Origin: Bacteroidaceae bacterium
GTDB taxonomy: Bacteria; Bacteroidota; Bacteroidia; Bacteroidales; Bacteroidaceae
NCBI GenBank assembly: GCA_017546785.1
Contig: JAFYRW010000014.1
Span: 1-33,434, forward strand
Length of the DNA stretch: 33,434 nucleotides
Direction: 5' to 3'
Part shown: in pieces, positions 16,600 to 31,925 of the stretch
Layout: each line of letters starts with the position of its first letter
How positions within the stretch are numbered: position 1 is the stretch's first letter
Translations under genes and position numbers: made by a program
The notes under the pieces: generated by a model
Databases searched by the model: none
Told to the model about the DNA's origin: nothing
Seen by the model: the letters and a program-made list of their open reading frames with translations, nothing else

Positions 16600-16619
16600 A
16601 TAGTGGATAGCCCCCAATA

Positions 16620-16658
16620 AAAAGATAGGACCTTCGAATTTCGAAGGTCCTATCTTTT
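16620..16658. terminator. Bidirectional terminator between tyrS and the lyase gene
   Basis: A 19-bp perfect stem (16620-16638 with 16640-16658) has A-run on the left and T-run on the right. It serves both converging genes. Confidence 0.9.
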
Positions 16659-16678
16659 TGTATATTGTTGTCAATATA

Positions 16679-18130
16679 TTATAGACTGTCGCCAAAATCC
16701 TCGCGGAATTTTGCTGCCAATTTCTCCTGCCAATCGCCAATAGGAGCGAGACGGCCAAAGAAGAAGCGCAATGTGCTGGGCTCTTCAACCCATTTCAATC
16801 CACCGATGAGGTGACGGTTGTCGTAAACCCATTTTACGCGGTCGGCACAATATTTAATCTGCGAGAGTGTGAATACACGACGGGGACAAGCAAGGCGTAC
16901 AAGCTCCATTTCCGAGAAATGCTCGCTGCCATCGGGGTCGCGCTGCTCCGACAATGTTCCGCGCTCCATTCCTCGTATACCGCCGGCAATGTATAGTGCT
17001 ACAGCAAGAGAGCCTGCGGGGAACTGACTCTGCGGCATATCTTTGAGGAATTCCATTGCGTTGATGTGTGCACCAAGACCTCCGGCGGGGAGAATCATAG
17101 GTACTCCGTAAGCGTCAAGCTCTTTTACAAGATGCTCGATGAACATAGGACCCTGACAGATTACCTCCTCGTCCAATGTCTCCAAAAGTCCTACTGCCAT
17201 AGCCTCCATAGAACGAACCTCCATACCTCCGTAGGTGAGGAATCCTTCGTAAAGAGGAATGAATTCCTTCATCTTAATAATGAGCTTCTCGTTGTTCGAG
17301 ATGATGGCTCCACCGCGTGCAAAGCCCAATTTGCGGCTCGAGAAGTAGATAAGGTCCATATTCTCGCTGATGGTGCGCATAATATCGCGTATGCTCATAT
17401 CTTTGCACGCCTCTTCGCGAGTCTTAATAAAGTAGAGGTTGTCCTGCAACAACGATGCGTCGAGTACACAAAGAATGCCATTCTTTTTACATACTGCGGC
17501 TACCTGTAACATATTCTCCATTGACAAAGGCTGTCCGCCGATGAGGTTTGTTCCTGCCTCGATACGTACGAAAGGTACGTGGTCGGCACCAACCTCCTCG
17601 ATAAGTTTCTCGAGTGCGGGAATATCGAAATTACCTTTGAAAGGCTCGTCGCTCTGAGGAACAAGACCTTTTGAGGTGATTAGCTCAACAACCGAACCGC
17701 CTTTGCGTGTGATGTGTGCTTTTGTTGTTGTAAAGTGGAAGTTCATAGGCACAACGTCACCGGGTTTTACGAATGCCTCGGCGAGAATGTTCTCACAAGC
17801 ACGACCCTGATGGGCGGGAAGGAAATAATCGGTGCCAAAGACTTCTTTTAGGACTTTCATCAAACGGTTGCAGGTCTCTGAACCGGCATAAGAGTCGTCG
17901 GCCTGAAACATTGCTGCTACCTGATTGTCGGACATTGCGTTTACACCAGAGTCGGTGAGCATATCCATATATACGTCTCTGTTCTGTAGAAGGAATGTGT
18001 TGTTTCCTGCTTCGTTTATCTTTTTGACACGCTCCTCGACAGTGGGGAGGCTGAGTTTCTGTACAACACGTACTTTGTGCATTTCGAGAGGCACCTGTTC
18101 TTCGCTTTTGTAGAATTTAATTGTAGCCAT
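16679..18130 (-). CDS. Tryptophanase / tyrosine phenol-lyase family beta-eliminating lyase
   Basis: This 483-residue PLP enzyme aligns over its full length with TnaA/Tpl, which cleave Trp or Tyr to indole or phenol plus pyruvate and ammonia. Visible marks are LTDSG (59-62), HQGRACEN (107-114), FKGNFD, GGQPLSM, the PLP aspartate Asp224 and the PLP lysine Lys267 in SSRKLG. Specificity is unclear: residues 388-391 read MERG, as in Tpl (Arg381 of the Citrobacter enzyme), where TnaA has VEIG or CEIG. However, the DATR/DSAR segment reads DASL, so an Arg near the cofactor is lost. It may act on another aromatic or thiol amino acid. It is a single gene with its own promoter and terminator. Confidence 0.85.
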   Translation of the reverse strand: MATIKFYKSEEQVPLEMHKVRVVQKLSLPTVEERVKKINEAGNNTFLLQNRDVYMDMLTDSGVNAMSDNQVAAMFQADDSYAGSETCNRLMKVLKEVFGTDYFLPAHQGRACENILAEAFVKPGDVVPMNFHFTTTKAHITRKGGSVVELITSKGLVPQSDEPFKGNFDIPALEKLIEEVGADHVPFVRIEAGTNLIGGQPLSMENMLQVAAVCKKNGILCVLDASLLQDNLYFIKTREEACKDMSIRDIMRTISENMDLIYFSSRKLGFARGGAIISNNEKLIIKMKEFIPLYEGFLTYGGMEVRSMEAMAVGLLETLDEEVICQGPMFIEHLVKELDAYGVPMILPAGGLGAHINAMEFLKDMPQSQFPAGSLAVALYIAGGIRGMERGTLSEQRDPDGSEHFSEMELVRLACPRRVFTLSQIKYCADRVKWVYDNRHLIGGLKWVEEPSTLRFFFGRLAPIGDWQEKLAAKFREDFGDSL

Positions 18131-18233
18131 TTTATTGCTTTTTTATTTGTTCATTTTTGTTGGAAATAGGCGTTTACAAACACTGTTTTCAACTACTTTT
18201 TGTTGTAAATGTCTATTTTGATTATATCGCTTG

Positions 18234-18264
18234 CAAAAATGTGCTAATTTTACAATATATGCAA
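18234..18264 (-). promoter_or_regulatory. Candidate promoter of the lyase gene
   Basis: On the minus strand CATTTTTG (18241-18234) is one base from TAnnTTTG, and a TTG (18264-18262) lies 20 nt upstream as a -33 box. The leader would be about 100 nt. The rest of 18131-18338 shows only A/T-rich sequence. Confidence 0.35.
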
Positions 18265-18338
18265 TTAAAAACTGACTTTTTTTAAATTGTTTTATTAAAA
18301 ATGCTATCTTGATGTCATTTTGTTATATCTTAAACATA

Positions 18339-18381
18339 GTTATTACCCCGGCGGAATATAAAATTCCGGCGGGGTAATAAC
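18339..18381. terminator. Large hairpin at the left end of the phage-type cluster
   Basis: GTTATTACCCCGGCGGAAT (18339-18357) pairs with 18363-18381 over 19 positions with one mismatch; the loop is 5 nt. It sits 17 bp beyond the terL stop codon and so probably terminates the minus arm. It lacks a long T-run, and I saw no second copy at the other end of the cluster that would make it an attachment site. Confidence 0.6.
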
Positions 18382-18398
18382 GCTATCTATTATGAAAC

Positions 18399-20414
18399 TT
18401 AAAAACTGGCCTCGCTTATTATTCTTCTTTTTTCGCGGCAGCGGTGGTCTTTGCTGTATTTGTAGGGTAGAGGATGGTTGTAACACACCCATACGAGTAT
18501 TGCTGTTGCCATTACCCTGTCGTCGTGGTTACCCTCTATCGCTCCCATTTCCTTGCCATTCTCCTTAATCTCGTAAAGGTCGAGCTCATAGGTCGTCTCT
18601 ATGCAACGTTCAATATATAGCTCGTCGCGTAGCGCTTTTATGAGAAAGTTTATGACCATCGGCTTTGTCGATGAATTAGTGTGGAATCCCCAACGACGCG
18701 GTCGCCCCTGTCGTATCTCTTGCTGGGAGGTGCGGCAGTAGAGATTGCTATAGTGTCCGGCTATTTCGTTGAGTATATATTCGAAATTGTCGCCCTCGGT
18801 GCCTTCGGTCTCCAGTGTGTTCGATTCAATGATCAATAGGGCATTGTCGTAGGCTCTGGCAATCTCTAGAGCCTTCCAAGCGAGCTTGTCGTGCTCAATG
18901 TGCCCGTGCCAACAGGCTGCAATCTCGGGGACTCCTCCGTCGAGCATTGCCAAGCGGTCGGCTACTACTATGCAGGAGTAGTCGGCCTTGTCCGAAACTC
19001 CACCAACGTCCACGCTCACAATATAACGGTCGCGCAGATGCTGCTCGCAGTCGGGCATCAACCACACCCATAATGAATTTTCGTTGCAATTTTCTCCCGG
19101 CGCTGCCGCCACGAACCGTCTGTTGCCCTCTCTCTTCTTTTTGTCGTCGCTATCGTATTCTGCAATAATGTCCCCTTTAAAAGGCGGGGGAATACAGCCG
19201 CTGCGCATATTGTTTACATAGGATACACGGAATACACGGCGGCCGCTACTCTGGAATGCCTCGTTGGCCGTCGATGGAAACTCGGAAAAGAGACGCCACT
19301 CGTCGGGAAGCTCGCGGCGTTTGTCGCGATACCACGCTATTGCCTCGAGTGTGGCGCCTAATTTAAAGAGCTCCTTCTCGTAGTCGTCCATAGTGTCGAT
19401 GAAATTCGCGTAGTCCGCTTTTTCAATATGCTTGCTGTATAGGTCTATGCTGTACCACGGTATAAATACCGGAGTAAAATTATTGCGTCCTTCCACTGCG
19501 TCAATCCAAGTTCGGTGAAAGAAATTGCCTACGCCTTTTGCGGTGGACTCCAAAATCTTCATTGTATAGGGGCCGCTTGCAATGGAACCGAATATCGACT
19601 GCACAAGATCCTCGGGCTTTTTGCCGGCTGTTGCTTTCCACAGGCCTACCTCGGTAAGATGGGCCATACTGATATCTTCGCTTCGCAACGAATCGGGCTT
19701 TTGAGACGAGCCTAACGAGTAGCGGCTGTTGCTCAAGCTGATGACTCTTGTCTTTTGCGCTCCCTGATAGGGCGTCGTTGTAATCTTCTTGCCGTTGGTA
19801 GCCCACAAAGGGTAGTTGTTTATTACCTTTGACAACATACCCGACACTATCGATGATTGTTTCTCAATGTCTCCACATATTACACTGTTCCAATTTCGTT
19901 TGTGTACCAATTGTATCCATAGCATATATAATTGTGTAAGGGTACTGCCGCCCCATTGCCGCGCCTTACATAATATAATATCTATTGGAGAGTTCTTTAG
20001 ACGCAGACTCTCCAATGCCTTAAGGTAGTAGCGTTGCGGACGGTTGAGTGTGAACGGAATGTCGCGTCCTTTGCCCTTGTCCGATATTATTGCAACGCTT
20101 TTTGCCCAATATTCAAAGTCGTGCAGTATGCGTGTACGACAAAATTTCAACCATAGTGCAACAATATCCCTTTGTGTAGCTTCCTTGCCGTTAATGTCGT
20201 GTAGGAACCCTTTTGCCCCTTTCTTTGTGAGCTTGCCAATAAAATCAATCTCGAGCATAGTCTCAGGAAGGTTCATACTCTGTAGCGGAAAGCCTTCTAT
20301 CTCAACCCTTCTACGGGCGAGGCTCGTTGAGCCTTCGCCTGTGATAGGGCTATAGGGTGCCGATATCTCTTTCAGACGTGCCTCGTTTGTTCTTATTATC
20401 TCACTTTTGTCCAC
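18399..20414 (-). CDS. terL: Terminase large subunit
   Basis: This 671-residue protein has the two-domain TerL layout that drives DNA into capsids and cuts it. The ATPase part (about 115-400) has a P-loop-type segment KARQWGGST (150-158), a Walker B-like strand with Glu255 (HLTEVG) and the coupling motif ESTAKG (289-294). The RNase H-like nuclease (about 460-645) shows Asp469 in VSVDVGG, Glu530 in LLIIESN and Asp631/Asp632 in GNHDDRV, a complete acidic set. The P-loop has Gly where classic GK[ST] has Lys, as in several TerL groups with a KxRQ start. It is the last gene of the minus arm, 2 nt after the preceding gene. All catalytic residues being intact argues against decay. Confidence 0.9.
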   Translation of the reverse strand: MDKSEIIRTNEARLKEISAPYSPITGEGSTSLARRRVEIEGFPLQSMNLPETMLEIDFIGKLTKKGAKGFLHDINGKEATQRDIVALWLKFCRTRILHDFEYWAKSVAIISDKGKGRDIPFTLNRPQRYYLKALESLRLKNSPIDIILCKARQWGGSTLTQLYMLWIQLVHKRNWNSVICGDIEKQSSIVSGMLSKVINNYPLWATNGKKITTTPYQGAQKTRVISLSNSRYSLGSSQKPDSLRSEDISMAHLTEVGLWKATAGKKPEDLVQSIFGSIASGPYTMKILESTAKGVGNFFHRTWIDAVEGRNNFTPVFIPWYSIDLYSKHIEKADYANFIDTMDDYEKELFKLGATLEAIAWYRDKRRELPDEWRLFSEFPSTANEAFQSSGRRVFRVSYVNNMRSGCIPPPFKGDIIAEYDSDDKKKREGNRRFVAAAPGENCNENSLWVWLMPDCEQHLRDRYIVSVDVGGVSDKADYSCIVVADRLAMLDGGVPEIAACWHGHIEHDKLAWKALEIARAYDNALLIIESNTLETEGTEGDNFEYILNEIAGHYSNLYCRTSQQEIRQGRPRRWGFHTNSSTKPMVINFLIKALRDELYIERCIETTYELDLYEIKENGKEMGAIEGNHDDRVMATAILVWVCYNHPLPYKYSKDHRCREKRRIISEASF

Positions 20415-20416
20415 GC

Positions 20417-20893
20417 TTAGATACCGGCCAAATTGGTGGGGCGGCGTCGCACCTTTTTATGATTGTAAAACATTGCCAACACCTCTTTGACACTGCTTGT
20501 CCATTGAATGTGTTTGTATTCGTAGCCCTGCGATAATGCAGGCTGTCGTAGGCTGAGCCACTGCATAGTGAGCTCGTTTACCAGATAATCGTTTATTCGT
20601 TGCTGTAGCAGAGGAAGCAACTCTTCTCTTTGCTCGTCTGCGTCGGCAAAGGTTAGAGATATATAATCCTCCTCGACACTATATTTAACCGATGAGAAGC
20701 GCAGTGCCACGCTTGTCATAATTTCGTTTATGGCACGGCGCAGAATCATTTCAAAAAGTTCCTCTTCGTCCTTTGATGTTTCTATGGTGTCGGCGTCAAT
20801 CTCTTTGCGTTTTATGGCCTCGCCCATATAGAACATCTTAAGATGTACCTCGTGCTGCAGTTTTTTGCGGTTGATTATAATGTTGTAATCCAT
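20417..20893 (-). CDS. Small particle-cluster protein, paralog A
   Basis: This 158-residue protein is not recognised as a named family. It starts with a strand (YNIIINRKK), then a helix with MGEAIKR, an acidic DEEELFEMI helix, a strand (YISLTFAD), long helices and a basic tail (KKVRRRP). The same plan occurs in the neighbouring gene (20896-21384) and in 29717-30139, so the three appear to be diverged copies. The ATG at 20893 gives an N-terminus that aligns with the paralogs; the frame is open upstream but that part overlaps the preceding gene. Position between paralog B and terL suggests a head, neck or packaging role. Confidence 0.75.
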   Translation of the reverse strand: MDYNIIINRKKLQHEVHLKMFYMGEAIKRKEIDADTIETSKDEEELFEMILRRAINEIMTSVALRFSSVKYSVEEDYISLTFADADEQREELLPLLQQRINDYLVNELTMQWLSLRQPALSQGYEYKHIQWTSSVKEVLAMFYNHKKVRRRPTNLAGI

Positions 20894-20895
20894 AA

Positions 20896-21384
20896 TCAGA
20901 TTTTTATTAGCTTGTCGTATGAACTTGAATCTTCCATTGTGGGACGTTTGCGTATCGACAGCAATTCCCTTAGATGATAGAGTGTTTTCTGCGCTTCGCC
21001 CGATGCAATATTTGCTTCGTCGGGCTTGTGCTGAGACAACCACAATTGCAGTGTGTGCATAATAGAGAAATATTCTATTGTTGATTCGAGCAGCGACACT
21101 GTCTCGGTGGGGAAATTGTGCGGTACTGCAATTGTAAAAAGAGTATCGCTGCCTTGATGCATCCTGCAGCTTGGCAGTAGCTGTGAAAGTAATTTTGCAG
21201 CTTCGCAGAGTGCGGCTTTTATGTGGTCGTTCAACTGCTCGTCATCGTCGTCTCCTGCTTGCATTGCAGCAGCCAATGTCTCGGGATAACCAATCTGCTT
21301 GCGTGCTTCGCCTGTGTAGTAGCAATGTGTCTTTATGCGTTCAAGCACAGACTGCTTGTTAAATTTAATCTCGATAGTTGTCAT
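20896..21384 (-). CDS. Small particle-cluster protein, paralog B
   Basis: This 162-residue protein is not recognised. It starts with a strand (TIEIKFNKQ) followed by YYTGEARKQ, an acidic DDDDEQLNDHI stretch, strands near TLFTIAVPHNF, a helix ending in LQLWLSQ and a basic RKRP near the C-terminus. This matches paralog C (29717-30139) position by position in the second half (P-x-N-F/W, WL, RK-x-P) and paralog A more weakly. It is 2 nt upstream of paralog A in the terL arm. Its role is unknown and probably structural. Confidence 0.75.
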   Translation of the reverse strand: MTTIEIKFNKQSVLERIKTHCYYTGEARKQIGYPETLAAAMQAGDDDDEQLNDHIKAALCEAAKLLSQLLPSCRMHQGSDTLFTIAVPHNFPTETVSLLESTIEYFSIMHTLQLWLSQHKPDEANIASGEAQKTLYHLRELLSIRKRPTMEDSSSYDKLIKI

Positions 21385-21450
21385 TGCGTTCTTTGTTTGT
21401 GTGGCAAAATTATATAGACATTCTCTCTATAAGGTTGTAGAAATGATATT

Positions 21451-21867
21451 TCAGGCAAATGCTCTCCTGCGTTCACGGATAGAGCGGTAGAGCAGTCCCT
21501 TGAATGTCCCTTCGTCTATGTAGAACGAAGGGGCAGGCTCTTCGAGTATACTCTCGAGGATGGTATAGTTGCAACATTGCTCCTTTATTCTTTTAAGGTA
21601 TCGTGCGTATATCTCCTTGTACATTGCCACCCTGTTGCTGTTTTTTATAGGCAATCTCTTTTTGCGTGCGAGCAACGAAATGAAACGTCGTGTATTCTCG
21701 AAGCTGACATAGAAACGCGGTGCCGATGATTTTACCGCCTCTTTTATTACCTCTCCCAAACTAATATTGGGATTGTCCTTGCGCATTCTTGTCAATGTGT
21801 CGAAAAAGGCCTCAATAACAGCCTGCTTGCGCATCTCACTAATCTTTCTCTCTTCAATTTTTGACAT
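21451..21867 (-). CDS. Small basic protein with an internal repeat (first gene of the terL arm)
   Basis: This 138-residue, Arg/Lys-rich, helical protein is not recognised. It contains two copies of one unit: SSAPRFYVSFENTRRF at 47-62 and EPAPSFYIDEGTFKGL at 110-125, each followed by a basic helix (ARKKR, RERRR). The APxFY[VI] core suggests a duplicated nucleic-acid- or protein-binding module. As the basic first gene of an arm ending in terL it could be a small-terminase-like DNA-recognition protein, or a regulator of the cluster; both are inference. It starts 14 bp from a TAnnTTTG promoter box. Confidence 0.7.
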   Translation of the reverse strand: MSKIEERKISEMRKQAVIEAFFDTLTRMRKDNPNISLGEVIKEAVKSSAPRFYVSFENTRRFISLLARKKRLPIKNSNRVAMYKEIYARYLKRIKEQCCNYTILESILEEPAPSFYIDEGTFKGLLYRSIRERRRAFA

Positions 21868-21876
21868 AATTTTTTT

Positions 21877-21916
21877 ACCACAAAAATATAGCCAAAAATG
21901 GCTAAAAGTTGGTGGT
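21877..21916. promoter_or_regulatory. Dyad at the divergent cluster promoter (candidate operator)
   Basis: TAGCCA (21889-21894) and TGGCTA (21899-21904) form a perfect dyad around AAAA. An outer pair ACCAC (21877-21881) and GTGGT (21912-21916) encloses it. The inner dyad touches the terL-arm -7 box and lies in the -7/-33 spacer, a typical place for a repressor or activator to bind. Confidence 0.45.
21881..21888 (-). promoter_or_regulatory. -7 box of the terL arm
   Basis: On the minus strand this reads TATTTTTG, matching TAnnTTTG, 14 nt upstream of the start at 21867, which implies a very short leader. Confidence 0.45.
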
Positions 21917-22035
21917 TTTATAAAAAAGTTTTCAACACTTTTCTTACCTCTTTTATATATACTGCGGTGGTGGAAGACTTTTTTTCAATCTCTGCGAAAT
22001 AATAAATCTGCAACCTCGCCGCCCGTTGTTGCCCC

Positions 22036-22065
22036 CATCTTTGCCGACGAAAAAAATATACAACA
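22036..22065 (+). promoter_or_regulatory. -7-like box and leader of the capsid arm
   Basis: CATCTTTG (22036-22043) differs from TAnnTTTG by one base. The following leader, TTTGCCGACGAAA then A-rich to the ATG at 22066, closely resembles that of the SGNH hydrolase gene (31122-31149). Confidence 0.35.
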
Positions 22066-22851
22066 ATGGAGAAGAATTTGAAAAATTATGAACCGTCGGA
22101 TGTTGAGGCTGCACAGGCTCAGCCTAACGAAATTCCGCAAGAGAGTATGAACAATGTGCAGACAGCCTCCTATGCCGAATTTGAAAAGGAGTTACAGCAA
22201 TTGCTTGGCAAGGATTTTAGACTCGATGATGAGATGTCGCAGGATATGCTCATTATGCACATAAAGAAGAACAAGGAGCAGAGTGAACAGCTTGCCGAGG
22301 CATTGGAGCGCGACCCTCGTTTAGCTCAGATGCTTGTCGATGTCATTGATGGGAAAAGAAGCGCGCACGCCTCTATGGCACGCTATTTTGGCCGCTCGAT
22401 GATGGAGCTTGACGAGTCGAGCCCAGAATTCGAGGAGATGATGATTGCCGATGAGGAGCGTCGCGATGAAATGTATCGTCTGGTAGAGAGTCGTCGCGAG
22501 TATGAGAGTAATCTCGAGGCGAGTCGCCCGATAATAGAGCAATTCTGTAGTGAGAAGGGCTACGAGCCTGCCGATTTTATGGAAATGGTGTGGGAAAAGG
22601 TTGTCTTTCCTGTTCTTTCGGGAAAATACTCCTATGAGGTATGTACAGCGCTCGACCACTCACTCACTTATGAGCAGGATGTAGAGGATGCTTTTGCAGC
22701 CGGAGATATTAAGGGGCGCAATACGAATATCCAACGAATGAAAGGCGATATTGGCGACGGCCTGCCAAAGGGACTGCAAAGTGCTGCTCCTGTCGATAAT
22801 ATAAAGAGACGCAAAGGCAACAGCCTCATAGAAGCGGCTCTAAAAGCATAA
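22066..22851 (+). CDS. Probable capsid scaffolding protein
   Basis: This 261-residue, highly acidic and predominantly helical protein has no catalytic motif. Acidic stretches such as LDDEMSQD, SPEFEEMMIADEERRDE and VEDAFAAGD alternate with helices. The C-terminal end turns basic (IKRRKGN), as in scaffolds whose tail contacts the coat protein. It lies 37 nt upstream of the major capsid gene, the standard place for a scaffold. The assignment rests on composition and position, not on a recognised domain. No protease motif is visible, so it is not a protease-scaffold fusion. Confidence 0.65.
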   Translation: MEKNLKNYEPSDVEAAQAQPNEIPQESMNNVQTASYAEFEKELQQLLGKDFRLDDEMSQDMLIMHIKKNKEQSEQLAEALERDPRLAQMLVDVIDGKRSAHASMARYFGRSMMELDESSPEFEEMMIADEERRDEMYRLVESRREYESNLEASRPIIEQFCSEKGYEPADFMEMVWEKVVFPVLSGKYSYEVCTALDHSLTYEQDVEDAFAAGDIKGRNTNIQRMKGDIGDGLPKGLQSAAPVDNIKRRKGNSLIEAALKA

Positions 22852-22888
22852 ATAACTTTTTACTAATCAATAAATTATTATTTTTTTT

Positions 22889-24517
22889 ATGAAGAGATTT
22901 TTGAATTTTTTGAAAGAGAATCCAATGTTTGTTTTTCTTTCGTTGGTGTCTGTTGCCCTTTACTTCTTGTCGGGCGATGAGTGTGGTCTAATGTTGGCTA
23001 CGGTGTCGGTGGTAAGCCCCGGATATCCTCGTGCATCGCGAGGCATTGCCGGTCTTCCTGCGCACGGAAACGGTAGTGCAACAACCGTTTCTAATGCCTC
23101 GGAATTGAGTGATGATCTTATTGAGGCTGATATTGATCAGGAGATAATAAAGATTGCAAGCGACGAGAGTGTAATAGATACCATCAAGCGTCGTGTGGAC
23201 CGACAGGTAAGAGTGCACTCTTTCGAGGTTAATCACTATATGATTGACGAGAAACGCTCAAAGGCCTACACTAATGCAACCTATACGGGCATTAAGGCTA
23301 CACGCGCCGAGATTCCCTTCTCGACAACAGGAGAGAGAAAAATCTTTCAGGAGTATTTCACCGCAATATGTAAGGGAGTGAACGGTTACGACCCCACCGG
23401 TCAGATAGAGCTTCCCGGAGTAGACCTTATGCTCTTCTTCGTTGGTAAAAACAGCACTACCGAGGCTCCTATTGCAATGGCGGTGAACGGCCCCAAAGTA
23501 AATGCGACAGACGATTATTGCGTTGTTCCTACTATCCCTTCGGGTACAGAGGTTATTCTTCTTTCATCGGCGGCGTATGAGACACAGAAGTTTATTGCGC
23601 CTAGCACAGTAGTTCCTGTTCCCGAGCGTGTCTATCTGCAGAAACAGCTATGCAACAATATTGTCAGCGACTATTTCAAGGCGCAGAAAAAGAAATTGGA
23701 GTTCAGCGAGGCACAGATTGCCGAGGCTGTCGTTCGTCAGTTCCGTCTCGAGAGCTGCCGTACAGCGTGGGTAGGACAGCCCGGAAAGTTTAAGGTACAG
23801 GCTATGGATGCAGCTATGGGCTATCAGTGGGATTACTTCTCAAAGGGCTTACGCTGGCAGTTTAAACGTCAGTATGACCTCTCTTCTACAATCACTTTCG
23901 CTGATCTTTTGAACCTGTCAATGGTTAAATTTACAGGATATAATTGCACCAAGAGAGCAGTGTGGTTGTTGGGTAGACAGCTTTTGAATGATATTCAGAA
24001 GATTGACATTACACTACATAAGAATATCTCTATGGGCGGCGGCAGTGTGTTCGGTCTTAAATGTACAAAGATTCAGACTGTATTTGGTGAGATTAACCTT
24101 GTACACGATCCTACACTCGATGCTCTCGGATATTCCAATTGCGGAGGACTTATCGACGAGAATGGTCTTGTGCGCTACTATATGAAGAACGAGGATTCAA
24201 ATACAGAGAATGTCGAGGGCGAGGAGGCTAAGCGTCAGGTGGTAATGACAATAGACTGTCTCTGTCTCAAAGGCTACAGCCATATTTGGGTGAACGGTGC
24301 TGCAGAGAAGAGCGATATTCCCGGAGCGTCGCGTGTGACAAGCTCAGCAACATTGCCCGAGTCTCCAAATACTAACGACGTTGTGGTGCTTACCGCCGAT
24401 GTTAATCGTATTGTGGACGGCGAGAGTCAATTGTGGTTCCCTGCCGGCAGTGTGGTTACATACACCGGAAATACTTGGGTAGAGTATACAGGAGAGATTC
24501 TTACTGTTGGTGAGTAA
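22889..24517 (+). CDS. Major capsid protein (HK97-fold type) with hydrophobic N-terminus
   Basis: This 542-residue protein has the hallmarks of a Bacteroidota-phage coat protein: a long N-arm helix region (about 70-110), an E-loop-like stretch, and a late P-domain strand set reading KIQTVFGEINLVHDPTLDALGY and GGLID (about 392-425). A Ser/Thr-rich C-terminal extension (about 470-542) forms an extra beta domain. Residues 12-28 (PMFVFLSLVSVALYFLS) are membrane-like, which is odd for a coat protein; ATG 22991 (Met35) would remove it, but the upstream context of 22889 (A/T-rich, 37 nt spacing) is better. The N-terminal part could be cleaved on maturation, though no protease is encoded here. Confidence 0.8.
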   Translation: MKRFLNFLKENPMFVFLSLVSVALYFLSGDECGLMLATVSVVSPGYPRASRGIAGLPAHGNGSATTVSNASELSDDLIEADIDQEIIKIASDESVIDTIKRRVDRQVRVHSFEVNHYMIDEKRSKAYTNATYTGIKATRAEIPFSTTGERKIFQEYFTAICKGVNGYDPTGQIELPGVDLMLFFVGKNSTTEAPIAMAVNGPKVNATDDYCVVPTIPSGTEVILLSSAAYETQKFIAPSTVVPVPERVYLQKQLCNNIVSDYFKAQKKKLEFSEAQIAEAVVRQFRLESCRTAWVGQPGKFKVQAMDAAMGYQWDYFSKGLRWQFKRQYDLSSTITFADLLNLSMVKFTGYNCTKRAVWLLGRQLLNDIQKIDITLHKNISMGGGSVFGLKCTKIQTVFGEINLVHDPTLDALGYSNCGGLIDENGLVRYYMKNEDSNTENVEGEEAKRQVVMTIDCLCLKGYSHIWVNGAAEKSDIPGASRVTSSATLPESPNTNDVVVLTADVNRIVDGESQLWFPAGSVVTYTGNTWVEYTGEILTVGE

Positions 24518-24534
24518 AAGTGAATTTATTAACG

Positions 24535-24561
24535 GTTGGTGCGCCTCAATGGCGCACCAAC
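24535..24561 (+). terminator. Hairpin after the capsid gene
   Basis: GTTGGTGCGCC (24535-24545) pairs perfectly with 24551-24561, loop TCAAT, followed by A-rich sequence, not a T-run. It may be a partial terminator or RNA-stability element that lowers expression of downstream genes relative to capsid. Confidence 0.6.
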
Positions 24562-24574
24562 AAAAACAAAAGCT

Positions 24575-24994
24575 ATGAAGAAAATAATAACATACGAGAT
24601 TTACGGACAGGTAGAGCGCAGCAGCTATTTTAGAGTAGGAAAGGCGCTTATGAGAGTGGAATTTAAGGGAGGTTCAATAAATTCGGCAGGCCTTGTTCCT
24701 GCAACCTTTGTTACGGACAATTCTTTGTTGCAGAATGCAATAGAGGCCAGCGATGCTTTCCGCTCGGGACAGATAAAGCGTGGAAAGGTTGATGTTCTTC
24801 CTGAATCTTCGGATACGATTCCAAGCAATGAGGAGGGCAAAAAGAAATCTTTCCCTGACGTTACAAATATGCAGCAGGCGCGTGCATTGCTTATGGCCGA
24901 GCCTTATTCTCTTTCGCTGTCCGACCTACAGACAAAGGCTGCGATAAAGAAAAAGACCGAGGAGTGCGGAGTAATCTTCCCTAATTGGCTATGA
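24575..24994 (+). CDS. Small capsid-adjacent protein
   Basis: This 139-residue protein has an N-terminal beta domain (ITYEIYGQVERSSYFRVG, then RVEFKGG) and a C-terminal three-helix segment (NMQQARALLMAEPYSLSLSDLQTKAAIKKKTEECGVIFPNWL), linked by a charged, flexible stretch. The C-terminal segment recalls small peptide-binding or SAP-like helical domains. I do not recognise a named family; the gene right after the coat protein often encodes a head-decoration or head-fibre protein. ATG 24575 follows the hairpin; the stop overlaps the next start by 4 bases (ATGA). Confidence 0.75.
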   Translation: MKKIITYEIYGQVERSSYFRVGKALMRVEFKGGSINSAGLVPATFVTDNSLLQNAIEASDAFRSGQIKRGKVDVLPESSDTIPSNEEGKKKSFPDVTNMQQARALLMAEPYSLSLSDLQTKAAIKKKTEECGVIFPNWL

Positions 24995-25644
24995 TAACTC
25001 ATAATGAATTAAAAGCAAAGGTTCGTCTGTTGTTGAACGAGGAGGATGGTGGGGAGGTCGTAACTCTTCTTTCCGACGATACTCGTAATATTGACGATTA
25101 TATAGAGTCGTTGCTTCCCGAGGCTGTCCTGTTTGTTCAGAAGAGTAGCCGGGTGGGAGGAGTTAATCCAAAAAGCTCAATTATAGGAGACAGAGGAATA
25201 ACCGTTGCTGAGGATGGTAGCGGTTATTTTAAACTGCCTAATGATTTTGTACGCCTTATATCATTCGCGATGAGAGGCTGGGAACGTCCCTGCAACAAAA
25301 TATATCCTGCCGATAGTGTGGTTGCTATGGCGCAAAGGAATAAATATACGAGGGCAGGGTGGAGCAAGCCTGTCTGTGTCGAGGGATTCGACAAAGAGGC
25401 TGCCCGTGTCATCTATTTCTACTCTTTGCCACCCGACACAGAGCCTTTTATCGAAGAACTGGTATATGATACGGTATATGTCCCTACCGATGGGCTGCGT
25501 TGTGACGACCGCCATCTTATAGAGGCTGTGGCCTATCAATGTGCGGCATTGCTCTATAATGTATTTGAAAAGCGCGATACAGCGTCGCTCTTCTTCTCAA
25601 TGGCGGCAGCGCTGTGCAATGGTAGCGAACCTAATAAAAAATAA
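24991..25644 (+). CDS. Putative head-tail adaptor (neck) protein
   Basis: This 217-residue protein starts with a helical segment (about 3-55), continues with GYFKLPNDFVRLISFAMRGWERP (about 74-96) and a strand-rich centre, and ends in helices (RHLIEAVAYQCAALLYN). The LPxDFxRL motif followed by GW is typical of adaptor/tail-tubular-A-like proteins in podoviruses and crAss-like phages, which sit under the portal ring. The assignment is by motif and position. It is translationally coupled to the preceding gene and 5 nt upstream of the next. A portal that it would bind is not found in the window. Confidence 0.6.
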   Translation: MITHNELKAKVRLLLNEEDGGEVVTLLSDDTRNIDDYIESLLPEAVLFVQKSSRVGGVNPKSSIIGDRGITVAEDGSGYFKLPNDFVRLISFAMRGWERPCNKIYPADSVVAMAQRNKYTRAGWSKPVCVEGFDKEAARVIYFYSLPPDTEPFIEELVYDTVYVPTDGLRCDDRHLIEAVAYQCAALLYNVFEKRDTASLFFSMAAALCNGSEPNKK

Positions 25645-25649
25645 TTATT

Positions 25650-25946
25650 ATGGCTATTCAAAAATTGAATATTGTAAAAAACGGGTATTTATGGGAAACT
25701 CAACCTTTTAAATGCTCCGGTGGTGATATTCGTGTAAGAGTGCATAAGGAGGGGCTATATCCAGTTGAGGTTCTTGTGAGTATAGATGGCGAGGAGGAGT
25801 ATCTGCGTCACGAAGATTTTGGACTCGATGAGTATAAATGTGAGATAACAATAGAGGGCGCAATGCCCGGACAATTTGTAAAATTCTCATCGCGCAGTGA
25901 GATTACTCTTTTAAAAATTCTCGAAAATAGTTTCTCTAATGGATAA
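25650..25946 (+). CDS. Small beta-rich phage-type protein
   Basis: This 98-residue protein alternates short strands throughout (IRVRVHKEG, VEVLVSIDGEEEY, CEITIEGAMPGQFVKFSS), as expected for a small beta-sandwich. There is no signal or membrane segment. The family is not recognised; proteins of this type lie among neck and tail genes of Bacteroidota phages. It overlaps the next gene by 8 bases, so it belongs to the same operon. Confidence 0.65.
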   Translation: MAIQKLNIVKNGYLWETQPFKCSGGDIRVRVHKEGLYPVEVLVSIDGEEEYLRHEDFGLDEYKCEITIEGAMPGQFVKFSSRSEITLLKILENSFSNG

Positions 25947-26409
25947 TGTGAGGCTTTTTGTAGCATCGTTATTCGCAAATTTAGCACTGCTGCTCTGTCC
26001 CATAAAGAATGATATTTTTGGTCTTATATTATTGTTCGTACTGAATTTTGTCATAGGACTTTTTGCCGACCTTAGCAATGGCAGGGAGTGGAGCTTTAAA
26101 AAGGCCTTCAGACTTTTTAGGGACGCAGCAGTCTATTTTGTGATGGTCTCCTCGATATATCTTTTGGGGCATCTGAAAGGTGAAGAGGGTGTTGCCGTGC
26201 AGTGTGTCTCCTTTATGATATATGTTGCAATATATTTTTACGGAACGAATATACTGCGCAACGCCCGTATGATTACCCAATATGGCAGCACACTCTTTCG
26301 TATCCTCGACTTTCTGTATTATGTGTTCAGCCTGCGCATAGTAGAGCGTTTCGATTATCTCAAAGGTTATGTGGGTGAGTATGAAAAGAGGGATAAGAAT
26401 TGTCTGTAG
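25939..26409 (+). CDS. Putative holin
   Basis: This 156-residue integral membrane protein has four hydrophobic segments (about 5-21, 26-46, 69-85, 94-113) and a charged C-terminal tail. Size, topology and the short charged loop after the second segment resemble phage_holin_4-type holins, which permeabilise the inner membrane at the end of infection. It overlaps the spanin-like gene by 29 bases, and this pairing supports the lysis role. No endolysin gene is next to it. A membrane protein of another kind cannot be excluded. Confidence 0.65.
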   Translation: MDNVRLFVASLFANLALLLCPIKNDIFGLILLFVLNFVIGLFADLSNGREWSFKKAFRLFRDAAVYFVMVSSIYLLGHLKGEEGVAVQCVSFMIYVAIYFYGTNILRNARMITQYGSTLFRILDFLYYVFSLRIVERFDYLKGYVGEYEKRDKNCL

Positions 26410-26794
26410 TCTGCTGCTTGCACTCTGTCTGTACTCTTGTGTTACGCAACATTCGGGATTGACGCATAATTCCCTGCAGTATATAGAACGTCATTTTCGC
26501 GATAGTATTGCTGTGTACGACAGCGTGTTTATAAAAGAGACTCCTGATACGGTCTACGAGATAAGACGCAGTATACTCTTTCGCGATAGGGTGCGTGTCG
26601 ATACTATCTTTGTAACCGATACTCTCTATCGCGAACAGAAAATATCGGAGTCTCTATTGGATAGTACCGTTAAAGGCAATGGAGGAGGCAGACTTTTAGG
26701 ACTGTTTGTAGCGTTGTTCGTAGCGCTTGTTCTATGGAGATGCGGCATTTTTGACTTAGTGTCGCATATAGTTAAAATGTTTATAAAATCTTAG
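26381..26794 (+). CDS. Putative unimolecular spanin (u-spanin-like)
   Basis: This 137-residue protein has a lipoprotein signal (hydrophobic 7-17, LYSC, Cys20), a periplasmic region built of repeated short strands (about 45-90: DSIAVYDSVFIKE, DTVYEIRRS, RVDTIFVTDTLYRE), a Gly-rich linker and one C-terminal transmembrane segment (about 104-123). A lipid anchor in the outer membrane plus a C-terminal inner-membrane segment is the defining plan of u-spanins, which fuse the two membranes to complete lysis. It follows and overlaps the holin-like gene. ATG 26381 is chosen because it begins the signal peptide; an upstream in-frame start adds four residues. Confidence 0.65.
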   Translation: MKRGIRIVCSLLLALCLYSCVTQHSGLTHNSLQYIERHFRDSIAVYDSVFIKETPDTVYEIRRSILFRDRVRVDTIFVTDTLYREQKISESLLDSTVKGNGGGRLLGLFVALFVALVLWRCGIFDLVSHIVKMFIKS

Positions 26795-26817
26795 TCTTTT
26801 GATAATACGAAAATAGT

Positions 26818-29712
26818 ATGCAAAAGTGTTTCTCTTTTCGAGGTATAGTAAGAAATACGGATAATTTGTTGGCTCGCGAAGGTGAATGTATGGAGCTTGT
26901 GAATATGAGAGTGAACAACGGCTCGTTGCAACCGGTTGCTCTTCCCGATGTGTTTGCCTCGTTTCAGCAGAGGTATACTGCTGTGTATATTCACTCAATA
27001 GCCAATGTCTATTTTTTTATAACAGAGGGTGATGCTCGCGTGCATCTGTACGACAATGATTTCAGGCCACTCTCTACCGCACTGATGATCAGCGGCTCTC
27101 CTCTGCTGTCGCTCGATGCTATAGGCATTCTTCGTGTGGAGTTTGTGGGAAATATTGCCTGCCTGTTTACTGCTGAAAAATTGCTTTATGCAATATATGA
27201 TGCGGGACGCTACAAATGGCTGGGCGAAGCTCCTGCGATACCAAAGCTCTCTTTTACGACAAAGTCCATTGCTCACGAAATAAACACCGACAATGAATAT
27301 TACCCAACGTCGTTGAACAGTAGTATAAGCCCCGAAACACGATGGGAGAATTGTTCTAAAGGTTATTTCGATGAGGCTCTCTCAAAATTGAATACTCAGG
27401 GATATTTTGTCGATAGGGCACTATTTCGCTATGCTTTCAGACTTTTTGACGGTAGCTATATATGTGCCTCGCCAATATATTATGTCGAGGATAAGAATGA
27501 GGTTGATGGACTCTATCGCGACAGGGGGAATTTTTACTCCCATTCACTGTCTGCTACCCCGGGTACAAGCAACGCAAGTAAATATTCTGTTAAGGTACAA
27601 GGCTTTAAGCCGGAATTTCTCTTTGATGGGCTTAATATAGCATCGTGGGAGAATATAATAGTGTCGTTGGATGTTTTTACCTCTGGCTCTATTCTTGGTC
27701 ACAAGGTGCTGAATAGCAGTGAGGTGCTCTCTTCGCGCGGTGATAATGTCTATACATCGTCGTCGGTTGGGTACGAGCGTTACGCCTTTAAGCCATACTC
27801 CGAAATATGGAGAGAGGTTGCAGAATGTTCAATATTTTATAAAGTAGCCGAATATAAGCTCGACGGTTCACTGTCGGATTACGAGTCTGATGTCTCGGCG
27901 GTAGCATTGTCGCAGTGTGACACTATGCCACTCGATTGCGGCAGCCTGCGAATGGTGAGTGCCGACTACAGTTACGTGTTTAACGGTCGTCTGCATCTGG
28001 CAGCTTTGCGCGAGAAACATTATAGCGGATATGGCAGCGATTGCTTCCTGCCGGCATCGTTGAGTGCTAAAAGTACAAGTGCAAAGGTGTACACCGAACT
28101 AAAGACAGAGAGCGGTAGCGTTGTCGTAAAGAAGGTGCATAATAATTTCCTGTTGGGAGAATCATCGGGCAATTACTATATTACTCCCTTTGTGCTTTAT
28201 CCCGATTCGCGAGCAAGAAGTATGACTTTTGTTATTTTCCTTAACTCAAAATATTATAGGAAAACATTCAATCTTACTCCGCATAAGATGCTCGACGCTT
28301 CCTATTATCTCAATTGTAAGGTGGGTAATCTCTCACTCTCTGTTGATATTTCGGGAAGCTCGGCTACTGCGGTGCGTATCCTCTCGCAAGATAATGTTTA
28401 CTCTTTCTTTGCTTACGAAAAGGGGGAATACAAGCTTGTATACTCCGACACTACCGGATGGATGTATGGCGACAGATGCTTTGCCGCTCCCGGAGCAACG
28501 GCTGCCAACAGCAGTTATCCTACAATATTTTGGCAGGGAGAGGTAAAGAACGGAGACGTTACAATAGTGAAGATTGTACAATCGCAGTCCGACGACCCTA
28601 TCGGTGCCTTGTGCGATATTGCAGTGGATTCAACCTGGGAGATACTCGATAGCGAGCCGCTGATTGAGGAGAATAATATAAGTGATGTCCGTTCGAATGT
28701 GATGCGTGTATCGTCGGTCGATAATCCTTTTTCGTTTCCTGTGGCACAAACGTATAAGCCTTCGAACGGTACAATTTATGCATTATGTAGCAATACTGTG
28801 GCATTGTCGCAGGGGCAATTCGGTCAGCATCCGCTTTATCTCTTTTGTAGTGACGGAATTTGGGTAATGTCTGTCGATACGTCGGGAACGGTAGCTTATA
28901 CTGCTGCTTATCCTCTGTCGCGCGAGGTTTGCAACAATCCTTCGTCGGTGCGTGGCATAGATTCGGGTGTAGTATTTATATCGGATAAAGGGCTTATGCT
29001 CGTACAGGGTAGCAATGTCCGCAATCTGTCGGCGGCAATGCTGTCGGAGCATAATTCGATGAAAGATATTGCCTCCGGTGCCATTTTTAAGAAAATATCG
29101 GCAATAGCCTCTCTCGACAATATGTTTGTCAATGATAACTTTCTGATCTATTTGTCGGGAGCGCTGTTGGGATATAATTATCTGCGCAACGAAATTGTTG
29201 TAACCAATAAGGGCTATTCTTATAGCTACATTTTTTCGTTGGAGAGCGGAGAGTGGTACAAAATATCCATTACATTCGATTTTATAGGAAAAAGTTATCC
29301 CTATTTTCTTGGATTGACTCTTGAGAATGGAGTAAGCAGCCTGTATAGGTTCTATGACAAGAGAGAGGCCGATACTCCGGTACTGCTCTTTTCGCGCCCT
29401 CTGCTGTGGGGAGGAAAATTCTTCAAGCGTGTGCTGCAGTCGATGCTGCACGCGGTAATAAAGCAGGCAAAGGGCAATAATCTCTTTAATGGCCTTGCCT
29501 GCTATCTGCTTTGCAGCAACGATGGGGTGAATTATAAACTCGTCACCGGAAGCGAGATTCGCGAGGAACATAATGATATTCATTTTCCCTATATGCCTAC
29601 GGCTTCTCATCGTTACTTTGTGATTGCTCTTGTGGGTAATTTATCGACAACAAGCAAGATAACCGCGGTAGAAATGTTTGTCGATTCAGCGTGGAACAAT
29701 AGAATAAGATAA
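26818..29712 (+). CDS. Large tail-nozzle / beta-propeller-like protein
   Basis: This 964-residue soluble protein has no signal peptide and is rich in short strands throughout. The N-terminus (FRGIVRNTDNLLAREGECMELVNMRVNNGSLQP) and the later block with YALCSNTVALSQGQFGQHPLYLFCSDGIWVM, then VFISDKGLMLV, are typical of tail-nozzle or stabilisation-like propeller proteins of Bacteroidota podo-like and crAss-like phages (functional analogues of T7 gp12). It is the largest gene in the cluster and fully open, which argues against decay. There is no fibre-like collagen repeat or receptor domain that I can recognise. It starts 23 nt after the spanin-like gene. Confidence 0.7.
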   Translation: MQKCFSFRGIVRNTDNLLAREGECMELVNMRVNNGSLQPVALPDVFASFQQRYTAVYIHSIANVYFFITEGDARVHLYDNDFRPLSTALMISGSPLLSLDAIGILRVEFVGNIACLFTAEKLLYAIYDAGRYKWLGEAPAIPKLSFTTKSIAHEINTDNEYYPTSLNSSISPETRWENCSKGYFDEALSKLNTQGYFVDRALFRYAFRLFDGSYICASPIYYVEDKNEVDGLYRDRGNFYSHSLSATPGTSNASKYSVKVQGFKPEFLFDGLNIASWENIIVSLDVFTSGSILGHKVLNSSEVLSSRGDNVYTSSSVGYERYAFKPYSEIWREVAECSIFYKVAEYKLDGSLSDYESDVSAVALSQCDTMPLDCGSLRMVSADYSYVFNGRLHLAALREKHYSGYGSDCFLPASLSAKSTSAKVYTELKTESGSVVVKKVHNNFLLGESSGNYYITPFVLYPDSRARSMTFVIFLNSKYYRKTFNLTPHKMLDASYYLNCKVGNLSLSVDISGSSATAVRILSQDNVYSFFAYEKGEYKLVYSDTTGWMYGDRCFAAPGATAANSSYPTIFWQGEVKNGDVTIVKIVQSQSDDPIGALCDIAVDSTWEILDSEPLIEENNISDVRSNVMRVSSVDNPFSFPVAQTYKPSNGTIYALCSNTVALSQGQFGQHPLYLFCSDGIWVMSVDTSGTVAYTAAYPLSREVCNNPSSVRGIDSGVVFISDKGLMLVQGSNVRNLSAAMLSEHNSMKDIASGAIFKKISAIASLDNMFVNDNFLIYLSGALLGYNYLRNEIVVTNKGYSYSYIFSLESGEWYKISITFDFIGKSYPYFLGLTLENGVSSLYRFYDKREADTPVLLFSRPLLWGGKFFKRVLQSMLHAVIKQAKGNNLFNGLACYLLCSNDGVNYKLVTGSEIREEHNDIHFPYMPTASHRYFVIALVGNLSTTSKITAVEMFVDSAWNNRIR

Positions 29713-29716
29713 AAGT

Positions 29717-30139
29717 ATGGAAATTATAATTGATAAGAGTGAGTGCATAGAGAATTTGCACAATCAGTCGGCCCATCTTGCCGTAAAGCTGTCGGCGCCC
29801 GAATATATAGCATCGACCGACGAGGATAGAGAGAGGATTATGCCTCTGCTGTCAGCCTCCTTTCTTGAATTGCATCAATTGCTGTCGCCTTATGCCGAAC
29901 TATCGGACGGGGAGCAAAATGTCTGTTATAAATTGTCAATGCCCAAGAATTGGAAGGATTGTCAGTATACGGCTCTTGATGAACTTTGCCGTGAATATGT
30001 GAAACAGACTTTTTTTGCTCGCTGGCTTGATTTTGTGAAAGCCGACAGTGCTGCTTTCTATCGGACATTGAACCAGAATATAGCAATGGCTGTAAAGCAT
30101 ATTCTTGCATTGAGAAAAAAGCCTGTAAGGACAAAATGA
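29717..30139 (+). CDS. Small particle-cluster protein, paralog C
   Basis: This 140-residue protein starts with MEIIIDKSE and has an acidic helix (STDEDRERIMPLL), a strand (VCYKLSMPKNW), helices with ARWLDF and a basic end (ALRKKPVRTK). It shares this layout with paralogs A and B of the terL arm, most clearly with B: P-x-N-[FW], a WL pair, and RK[RK]P near the C-terminus. It is the last gene of the capsid arm, 4 nt after the nozzle-like gene and just before a terminator. Presence at both ends of the cluster suggests that it contacts a shared structural partner. Confidence 0.7.
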   Translation: MEIIIDKSECIENLHNQSAHLAVKLSAPEYIASTDEDRERIMPLLSASFLELHQLLSPYAELSDGEQNVCYKLSMPKNWKDCQYTALDELCREYVKQTFFARWLDFVKADSAAFYRTLNQNIAMAVKHILALRKKPVRTK

Positions 30140-30170
30140 ATAAAGCAGCGGAGTATTCTGCTGCTTTATT
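30139..30170. terminator. Bidirectional terminator at the right end of the cluster
   Basis: AATAAAGCAGC (30139-30149) pairs perfectly with GCTGCTTTATT (30160-30170), with a 10-nt loop. It separates the converging capsid arm and LytTR regulator gene. Confidence 0.85.
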
Positions 30171-30171
30171 G

Positions 30172-30975
30172 TTATATCAGCTTTGTGATTGCATCCTGAT
30201 ATTTTCGTGAAATGGGTATTGTGTCGCAATTCGGCTGGTTGAGCTCTGCGACAATTATTCCTGCGCTGTTTTTGTGTATTATCTTTATATAGGCGGGGTT
30301 TATAAAATAGGACCTATGGCAACGCACAAGCCCGTGCTTTGTTAGAGTATCCTCGAGGGCTTTCATCGATGAACGCAATGTGAATTTCTTGTTTTTCTCC
30401 TTGTCTATATAATATATATGAACATAATTCTCCTCTGATTTTATGAATATTACAGCCTCGCGTGCTATGACAAAGCGTAGCTTCTTATATTCGTCGTAAA
30501 AACGTATGAGTGAATTCTCGTCAGGAGTGTTGTCAATTTGTCTCTCTTTGGAAAGAATCTCATATTTCATCCAAATAAACACATAAGGGTATATGAGTGT
30601 CGTAACGGTGAGTATGATGGCTCTTCCCGCTACCTCAAAGAACGACACCGCCTCTCTAAGCATCAGTGTAATATATAGCGATGAAAAGAGGGCTACAATA
30701 ATCATTTCGGCAAAGCACCACGCGAAATATACCTGTGTCGAGATTCTCTTTTTACGGTCGATAATGTACAGGCCTCCTCTGGTGAGAAAGGTCGATACCA
30801 ATACAATGCAAAAAAGGATTGTTGCATTAAAGGTAAAGCCCGCGTGCTCCATATTAAGGAGCGTGTATATGTTGTATGGCTTGTAGAAAATTACGAAAAA
30901 GAGAAAAAACAAAGAGATTGTCATTGTGTGGATGACAACAGAAACTCCTTTTGTTATTTTGTTGTACGCACTCAT
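30172..30975 (-). CDS. Membrane-anchored LytTR-type transcription regulator
   Basis: This 267-residue protein has four membrane segments (about 10-33, 46-70, 80-105, 113-138) followed by a LytTR DNA-binding domain (about 165-267), with EENYVHIYY, LRSSMKALED and LVRCHRSYFINPAYI as family marks. LytTR domains bind paired short repeats in promoter DNA. There is no histidine kinase or receiver domain, so any signal is sensed by the membrane part itself or a partner. ATG 30975 (MSAYNK) is chosen over an upstream start that would overlap the promoter box. It converges with the particle cluster and is divergent from the SGNH hydrolase; control of either is possible but unproven. Confidence 0.88.
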   Translation of the reverse strand: MSAYNKITKGVSVVIHTMTISLFFLFFVIFYKPYNIYTLLNMEHAGFTFNATILFCIVLVSTFLTRGGLYIIDRKKRISTQVYFAWCFAEMIIVALFSSLYITLMLREAVSFFEVAGRAIILTVTTLIYPYVFIWMKYEILSKERQIDNTPDENSLIRFYDEYKKLRFVIAREAVIFIKSEENYVHIYYIDKEKNKKFTLRSSMKALEDTLTKHGLVRCHRSYFINPAYIKIIHKNSAGIIVAELNQPNCDTIPISRKYQDAITKLI

Positions 30976-30997
30976 AATTGTACCTTTTTTGTTGGGA

Positions 30998-31005
30998 CAA
31001 ATGTA
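30998..31005 (-). promoter_or_regulatory. -7 box of the LytTR gene
   Basis: On the minus strand this reads TACATTTG, a TAnnTTTG match, 23 nt upstream of the start at 30975. Confidence 0.45.
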
Positions 31006-31035
31006 AATAAAAAATGTCAAACGTCACTGAAATTT

Positions 31036-31075
31036 GCGTTTAATCCCTAAATAATGGACTTTTTTAACTAAACGC
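31036..31075. promoter_or_regulatory. GCGTTTA/TAAACGC inverted pair between divergent genes
   Basis: GCGTTTA (31036-31042) and TAAACGC (31069-31075) are inverted copies with starts 33 bp apart, about three helical turns, in the shared LytTR/SGNH promoter region. It is a candidate binding site, possibly for autoregulation. Confidence 0.3.
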
Positions 31076-31117
31076 TTGTCCCGGTAACTCTTTTTTCTCT
31101 GTGGTTGCCGGCGGTTG

Positions 31118-31125
31118 TAATTTTG
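31118..31125 (+). promoter_or_regulatory. -7 box of the SGNH hydrolase gene
   Basis: TAATTTTG matches TAnnTTTG, 24 nt upstream of the ATG at 31150. The -33 region is only T-rich. Confidence 0.45.
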
Positions 31126-31149
31126 CCGCCGAAACAAAAAATATAACAG

Positions 31150-31848: not shown

Positions 31849-31854
31849 TCTTTT

Positions 31855-31872
31855 TTACAAAGTTTTTTGTAA
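31855..31872 (+). terminator. Weak hairpin after the SGNH gene
   Basis: TTACAAA (31855-31861) pairs with TTTGTAA (31866-31872), followed by an A/T-rich tail. It is a likely weak terminator in the 77-bp gap before the next gene. Confidence 0.45.
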
Positions 31873-31925
31873 TATTTTTATTTGTAAATACTTTTTATTA
31901 TCTTGCGAATCTATATTCAACTATT

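Follow-up and report, generated by a model that had tools for sequence, protein, structure and literature searches.

A compact cluster of phage-type particle genes was found at positions 18399..30139 of contig JAFYRW010000014.1 (assembly GCA_017546785.1), a stretch of 33,434 nucleotides from a Bacteroidaceae bacterium that, taken as a whole, is called the window below. This cluster (block A) is probably the main locus of a short-tailed phage that an uncultivated genus of Bacteroidaceae has domesticated and retains as a gene transfer agent (GTA), with block A contributing the packaging, head, nozzle and lysis genes and a second locus on contig C11 of the same genome (block B) supplying the rest. 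A sequence-only reading of the window had proposed a domesticated or GTA-like system kept by selection, and this interpretation was supported by the near genus-wide presence of the set, by ratios of non-synonymous to synonymous substitution (dN/dS) far below 1 and by gene trees that follow the host, from which we infer the GTA function itself.

Distribution, selection and descent of the particle genes

The sequence-only reading had suggested comparing the locus across related genomes and calculating dN/dS gene by gene. In a sample of 44 genomes, one per species, the set was found in essentially the whole genus: genus-type capsid and terminase large subunit (TerL) genes were each present in 42/44 genomes (G039 was not counted, its capsid matches standing at 38% and 26% and its TerL match at 44% only), the nozzle-type gene in 42 and the portal in 41. 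The host control gene tyrS was likewise detected in 41, and some of the matches, including those of tyrS, are fragments at contig ends. At least one of these four particle genes occurred in each of the 44 genomes, and all four were present in 11/11 near-complete genomes (≥90% complete, ≤5% contaminated). Additionally, 50 of 399 genomes in a family scan matched the capsid, 34 from the genus itself and 16 from at most 365 others, the latter with 23–39% identity, and a named scan returned 41 capsid loci, all from Bacteroidaceae or Bacteroidales metagenome-assembled genomes (MAGs) whose source animal, where given, is a ruminant. No relative was recovered from IMG/VR by two pattern-limited scans.

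Calculated by the Nei–Gojobori method with our own script, dN/dS between G023 and G041 was 0.012 for the capsid, 0.020 for the portal, 0.031 for the holin, 0.036 for the scaffold and 0.061 for TerL, ligA giving 0.047 in the same pair, and reached 0.128 for the nozzle and 0.166 for the giant protein of block B. Between G024 and L062 the values were 0.025 for the capsid, 0.032 for TerL and 0.078 for the nozzle. The short genes were noisier and some were higher, namely o98 (0.395, an over-long open reading frame, ORF), o162 (0.249, and 0.485 in a distant pair) and o141 (0.232). In identity to the window copy, the nozzle (36–55%) and the giant protein (32–46%) are the fastest diverging of the large genes.

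Trees of 41 capsid, 41 TerL and 39 portal sequences follow that of the host gene tyrS (38 sequences), so that descent is host-like. Mantel correlations with tyrS were 0.904 for the capsid, 0.806 for TerL and 0.725 for the portal (n = 35 each; best of 999 permutations 0.314), and 15, 16 and 14 of 32 splits, respectively, were shared with the tyrS tree, against at most two in 200 shuffles.

These results bear on two rival explanations. The sequence-only reading had named a recently trimmed prophage as its main alternative, and a phage relative does occur on contig C6 of the same genome, with its nozzle gene in two pieces. However, patchy presence, relaxed selection and broken genes, as expected of a decaying prophage, are not the pattern of this set, which is held by essentially all species of the genus with host-congruent trees and dN/dS far below 1. 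A recently trimmed prophage was refuted by fixation and tree congruence, and a recently trimmed or decaying one is hardly credible as the source of the pattern. A single prevalent phage lineage could instead have infected the genus repeatedly, as prophage-type copies within it (G000:C6, G039:C128) and the disagreement of half of the splits with tyrS might suggest; nevertheless, the overall congruence with tyrS, the presence of ligA no more than about 1.5 kb downstream of the portal in 19/30 loci of the genus and the lack of relatives in the pattern-limited IMG/VR scans leave this reading with scarcely any probability.

Two separate loci and their gene content

The sequence-only reading had listed the portal among the missing genes. 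In fact, the portal of BS-TP4 (PQ571277), a temperate-type Bacteroides phage, matches two sites in the window genome, namely the phage-like region on C6 and contig C11, where the gene occupies C11:13861-15873 (PF16510 P22_portal, E 1e-37). It stands last in block B, after a gene of about 200 codons, one of about 145–175 and one for a giant protein of 1482 residues (aa) with an LPD23 domain, and is followed by ligA. The product of the first gene looks ejection-protein-like, since its start (GALGLY..VKG) resembles that of a podovirus ejection protein. A 443-aa ORF upstream of block B (L079:4519-5850), with a sub-threshold LPD23 match (E 0.0038), is perhaps another relic of the giant protein.

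Blocks A and B are separate loci and not two sides of one contig break, because in G020, whose capsid is nearest to that of the window (91%), they sit inside two different long contigs, at about 219–231 kb of a 268-kb contig and at 224–231 kb of a 257-kb contig. Capsid and portal share a contig in eleven genomes of the genus; ten of these have them 12–35 kb from each other, and in G035 the distance is about 103 kb, more than the 64–68 kb of the related phages. Among genomes other than that of the window, nine with long contigs carry both blocks on a single contig, separated by a few to a dozen or so ORFs, and ten such intervening proteins, scanned against Pfam, comprised six ATP synthase subunits, one S24-type repressor and three without a match. 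A protein with a helix-turn-helix (HTH) and an S24 peptidase domain (L112:14328-14954) was found in 41/44 genomes at E ≤1e-50, often between block A and the ATP synthase genes; in our reading it is LexA/CI-like and possibly a regulator of the particle genes.

The set is scattered further in individual genomes. In G004, TerL lies on a different contig from the capsid and is absent from the stretch beside it, and in G001, G003, G014, G028 and G035 capsid and nozzle-type gene occupy different contigs, host-looking ORFs surrounding the latter in G003 and G035. Intact, constrained genes lying apart are expected if the set serves the cell, but not if its parts have to move together. A phage satellite or another helper-dependent, self-moving element would account for particle genes without recognised replication genes; however, an element in several pieces, such as the distant capsid and portal of G035 or a nozzle-type gene on another contig, cannot travel as one, and host-like descent also argues against this explanation, which is very unlikely.

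The window cluster itself has host-type flanks, with tyrS and a beta-eliminating lyase on one side and LytTR and GDSL genes on the other. These had been taken as a site by which the locus could be followed, but they do not mark the conserved site: the lyase flanks only 2/41 named capsid loci and tyrS 0/41 within the stretch examined. Elsewhere, tyrS (15298-16599 in the window) is a near neighbour of one particle gene or another in several genomes: it adjoins TerL in G019, is separated from the nozzle-type gene by about 3 kb in G001 and is found 7–8 kb from the portal in G033 and G035. As previously described, block A is tightly packed in two divergent arms, and all of its ORFs of note proved open (fractions give matches among the 41 named loci):

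18399..20414, minus strand: TerL, 671 aa (phrog_2, E 1e-20; 42% to BS-TP4 gp7)
20417..21043, minus strand: o208, a small protein of the TerL arm (32/41, a count affected by several loci that end early at contig ends; weak similarity to a C6 ORF)
20896..21384, minus strand: o162, phrog_19255 family (E 7e-6; 33/41)
21451..21867, minus strand: o138, first gene of the TerL arm (phrog_27246, E 9e-11; 36/41)
22066..22851, plus strand: scaffold-like protein by position, 261 aa (40/41)
22889..24517, plus strand: major capsid protein, 542 aa (SU10_MCP, E 0.005, below the Pfam cut-off; 24% to BS-TP4 gp11)
24536..24994, plus strand: o152, head-region protein (41/41)
24985..25644, plus strand: o219, adaptor-like by position (phrog_22135, a family without assigned function, E 1e-15; 41/41)
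25650..25946, plus strand: o98 (31/41)
25939..26409, plus strand: holin-like membrane protein, 156 aa (Phage_holin_4_1, E 2e-4, 21.8 bits against a Pfam cut-off of 22.2)
26369..26794, plus strand: o141, unimolecular-spanin-like in our own reading of its lipoprotein-type start and C-terminal membrane stretch (34/41)
26818..29712, plus strand: tail nozzle, 964 aa
29717..30139, plus strand: o140, phrog_19255 family like o162 (E 2e-8; 22/41, five of these matches landing on the o162 gene instead)

In TerL, the residues of a Walker A-like ARQWGGST, of a TE within the region of Walker B and of the nuclease positions D, E and DD, in our own motif assignment, are invariant in 41/41 aligned sequences (C6 included), which agrees with the acidic residues previously read as complete. 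The tail-nozzle call for the 964-aa protein was likewise borne out, as it has the podovirus nozzle fold. The scaffold-like protein resembles BS-TP4 gp10 and a C6 ORF, each preceding a capsid gene, o219 resembles BS-TP4 gp13, and the capsid matched, by tblastn, a single gene of each of three Bacteroides phages. The structure model of o138 is all-helical (predicted local distance difference test, pLDDT, 76) without a PDB match at E ≤0.001, and the protein is an unproven candidate for the small terminase. As called, o208 overlaps o162; since its relatives have only 158–166 aa, translation probably starts further inside the frame.

Scans of 19 window ORFs against Pfam and PHROGs gave no integrase, repressor, replication gene or portal above cut-off, and no integrase, repressor, replication or endolysin gene was recognised among 10 C11 proteins scanned. 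The lack of recognised integration, repression and replication genes that the sequence-only reading had noted for block A held, and it extends to block B, apart from a sub-threshold match of o208 to DUF1233, a family of putative excisionases (E 0.093 and 12.8 bits, the cut-off being 22), and the single unit with integrase, repressor, replication genes, portal and endolysin that marks an intact temperate phage was not found among the proteins scanned. The reported lack of attachment repeats held except for one imperfect 17-nt pair, the sole find among direct repeats of ≥16 nt in 16,500-33,434.

A candidate gene transfer agent and its rival

GTAs are characterised in PMC9662315 by six features, three of which the set displays. 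Particle proteins derived from caudoviricetes are represented by TerL, the P22-type portal, the capsid and the nozzle; full endogenization, often in multiple loci, is seen in the separate blocks A and B and the displaced TerL of G004; and mostly vertical inheritance is indicated with one host gene, tyrS (Mantel r 0.73–0.90). The remaining features are the packaging of mostly random host DNA, a genome too large for one particle and the delivery of DNA to other cells. As far as sequence can tell, the set is GTA-like and a candidate member of this class. Scattered loci, two blocks without recognised integration or replication genes and a short giant protein fit a GTA. The giant protein has 1118–1887 aa in 11 genomes, whereas that of the C6 region reaches 3905 aa and that of BS-TP4 5391 aa. 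Above the Pfam cut-off, the copy of the window genome retains LPD23 alone, the C6 protein has LPD38, LPD14 and LPD23, and the BS-TP4 protein has LPD38, helicase, ddrB-ParB and pyrophosphatase domains, which suggests a loss of injected helper domains.

No endolysin has been identified and the small terminase is unproven, but otherwise the set comprises the parts that a particle needs to package and inject DNA. In the mechanism proposed, both blocks would be switched on in some cells, with the HTH and S24 repressor as candidate regulator. Scaffold, capsid and portal would then assemble proheads, which TerL, its ATPase and nuclease residues intact, would fill with host DNA; the adaptor, nozzle and ejection proteins would finish the short tail, holin and spanin would release the particles, and these would inject their DNA into related cells. 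What the sequences show is gene identity by fold or family, separation into loci, descent like that of host genes, purifying selection and no recognised integration or replication gene in either block; expression of the blocks, packaging of random DNA, its delivery, the roles in lysis and the regulator are predicted by the model.

The main rival is a domesticated, vertically kept DNA-packaging particle selected for something other than gene transfer, such as a killing particle like PBSX, which packages host DNA and kills rivals without transduction. Such a particle fits the same genomic evidence, and the fast divergence of nozzle and giant protein is expected if recognition diversifies. On the other hand, the kept portal, the ejection-type operon and the intact TerL suggest that DNA delivery is still selected. 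No result computed here separates the two, and a killing particle without transfer is considered unlikely, though by no means negligible.

Several observations weigh against a GTA. The same sequence picture would be expected from a killing or non-transducing particle. About half of the splits differ from the tyrS tree, for which exchange or weak resolution remain as explanations, and the window capsid pairs with that of G020, whereas tyrS places the two apart. Some genomes hold only part of the set: G015 (63% complete) has the portal alone of the four genes, G039 has portal and nozzle of the set with capsid and TerL of prophage type only, and the holin, found in 38/44 genomes, is absent in six and weak in four (29–34%, away from the capsid). 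Internal stops occur in four copies among the four large genes of the 44 genomes (capsid of G036, TerL of G040, portals of G042 and G002), possibly through MAG errors. The displaced nozzle genes, of which those of G003 and G035 are 50% identical to each other, may be replacements rather than moved originals, because with 29–32% identity they are no closer to the window nozzle than the C6 phage copy is. Finally, the endolysin reported as absent is still without a convincing candidate, as the BS-TP4 amidase gave just a weak match (E 0.0014) in a 392-aa frame.

If the GTA reading is true, it would reveal a cell-controlled route of DNA exchange in one of the main groups of the gut and an independent domestication from a short-tailed phage, a help in asking which parts are indispensable and which can be lost. 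The set provides marker genes for finding more such systems, and DNase-protected chromosomal DNA of the genus is predicted in ruminant gut viromes.

Related clusters, phages and known systems

A second capsid cluster was found in other families of the order. Of 393 Bacteroidales genomes scanned, 32 matched the capsid, and 25 of these come from six genera, one in each of six other families; 40 stretches around capsid matches from the order, family and genus scans were examined. In 13 genomes from five genera of five other families (L277, L282-L284, L286, L288-L293, L295, L296), the scaffold gene lies beside one conserved gene, which Pfam identified as fumarase in the single member scanned and which reciprocal best matches linked to it in the rest, with a spacing of 195–384 b in 11, a 203-b overlap as called in G436 and 3.5 kb in G615. 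None of those 13 stretches gave a match to the window-type TerL. For g51, the sixth genus, four stretches have the capsid cluster close to ligA (L275, L276, L298, L299), and the proximity of ligA in both g51 and the window genus may be coincidence or an old shared site.

In the capsid tree, read without branch support, the six genera cluster together and away from the window genus, and sequences of phage and prophage type, two further g51 copies among them, lie in between; this suggests a separate domestication. Within the group, capsid dN/dS was 0.020–0.064 in 6/7 pairs and 0.256 in the seventh, whose ORFs were called over-long. The fumarase-site cluster is probably a second, older domesticated capsid cluster. 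It is conceivable, albeit short of probable, that Bacteroidales domesticated podovirus-type phages at least twice, in the GTA of the window genus and in an older fumarase-site one predating the split of five families, and that GTAs are old and widespread in the order.

The closest sequences outside the set are those of the phage-like region on C6 (G000:C6, about 15000-64900; L006, L005, L081), with 74% identity in the capsid, 62% in TerL and 58% in the portal. It differs from the window set in its 3905-aa polyvalent giant protein, its split nozzle gene and its replication-type ORFs, recognised by similarity to BS-TP4; ORFs similar to the BS-TP4 genes annotated as replication initiation and PAPS reductase are present. 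No integrase was recognised in the stretch read, where the family search covered the giant protein alone and the ends are unmapped, and a second capsid or TerL copy of the C6 kind is listed in 0 of the other 43 genus genomes. As the C6 region shows, the genus is still infected by phages close to the ancestor.

More distant are the temperate-type Bacteroides phages BS-TP4, BKO1-TP3 and BF1-TP2, with 40–42% identity in TerL and 24–25% in the capsid. BS-TP4 shares the divergent TerL and scaffold–capsid layout, the portal, a nozzle-type gene and a giant polyvalent protein, but its single 64-kb record has an integrase, a repressor, replication genes and an endolysin annotated, none of which was recognised in blocks A and B, and its giant protein, as given above, is far longer. 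The terminase gene of BS-TP4 (L003:20340-22436) carries the public annotation tail spike protein.

The hosts of functional GTAs named in PMC9662315 are alphaproteobacteria, a sulfate reducer, a methanogen and a spirochete, and a 2026 virome study (PMC12946183) describes packaging of a GTA-like kind in Oscillospiraceae and Ruminococcaceae, and in Bacteroides lateral transduction. No paper on a GTA of Bacteroidota was among those listed by text searches of the open-access PMC literature, a scope outside which subscription papers and preprints fall. The alphaproteobacterial type I GTAs (RcGTA, Rhodogtaviriformidae) belong to another phylum, and the window set has short-tailed, P22- and crAss-like parts; by description rather than protein comparison, and as far as the excerpts of PMC9662315 go, they have in common a phage-derived particle set, several loci and vertical inheritance. 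The GTAs of Bartonella and Brachyspira (Bartogtaviriformidae, Brachygtaviriformidae) also come from other phyla and have experimental transfer data; likened again by description, they share with it co-diversification with the host and a TerL clade separate from that of phages (excerpts of PMC9662315).

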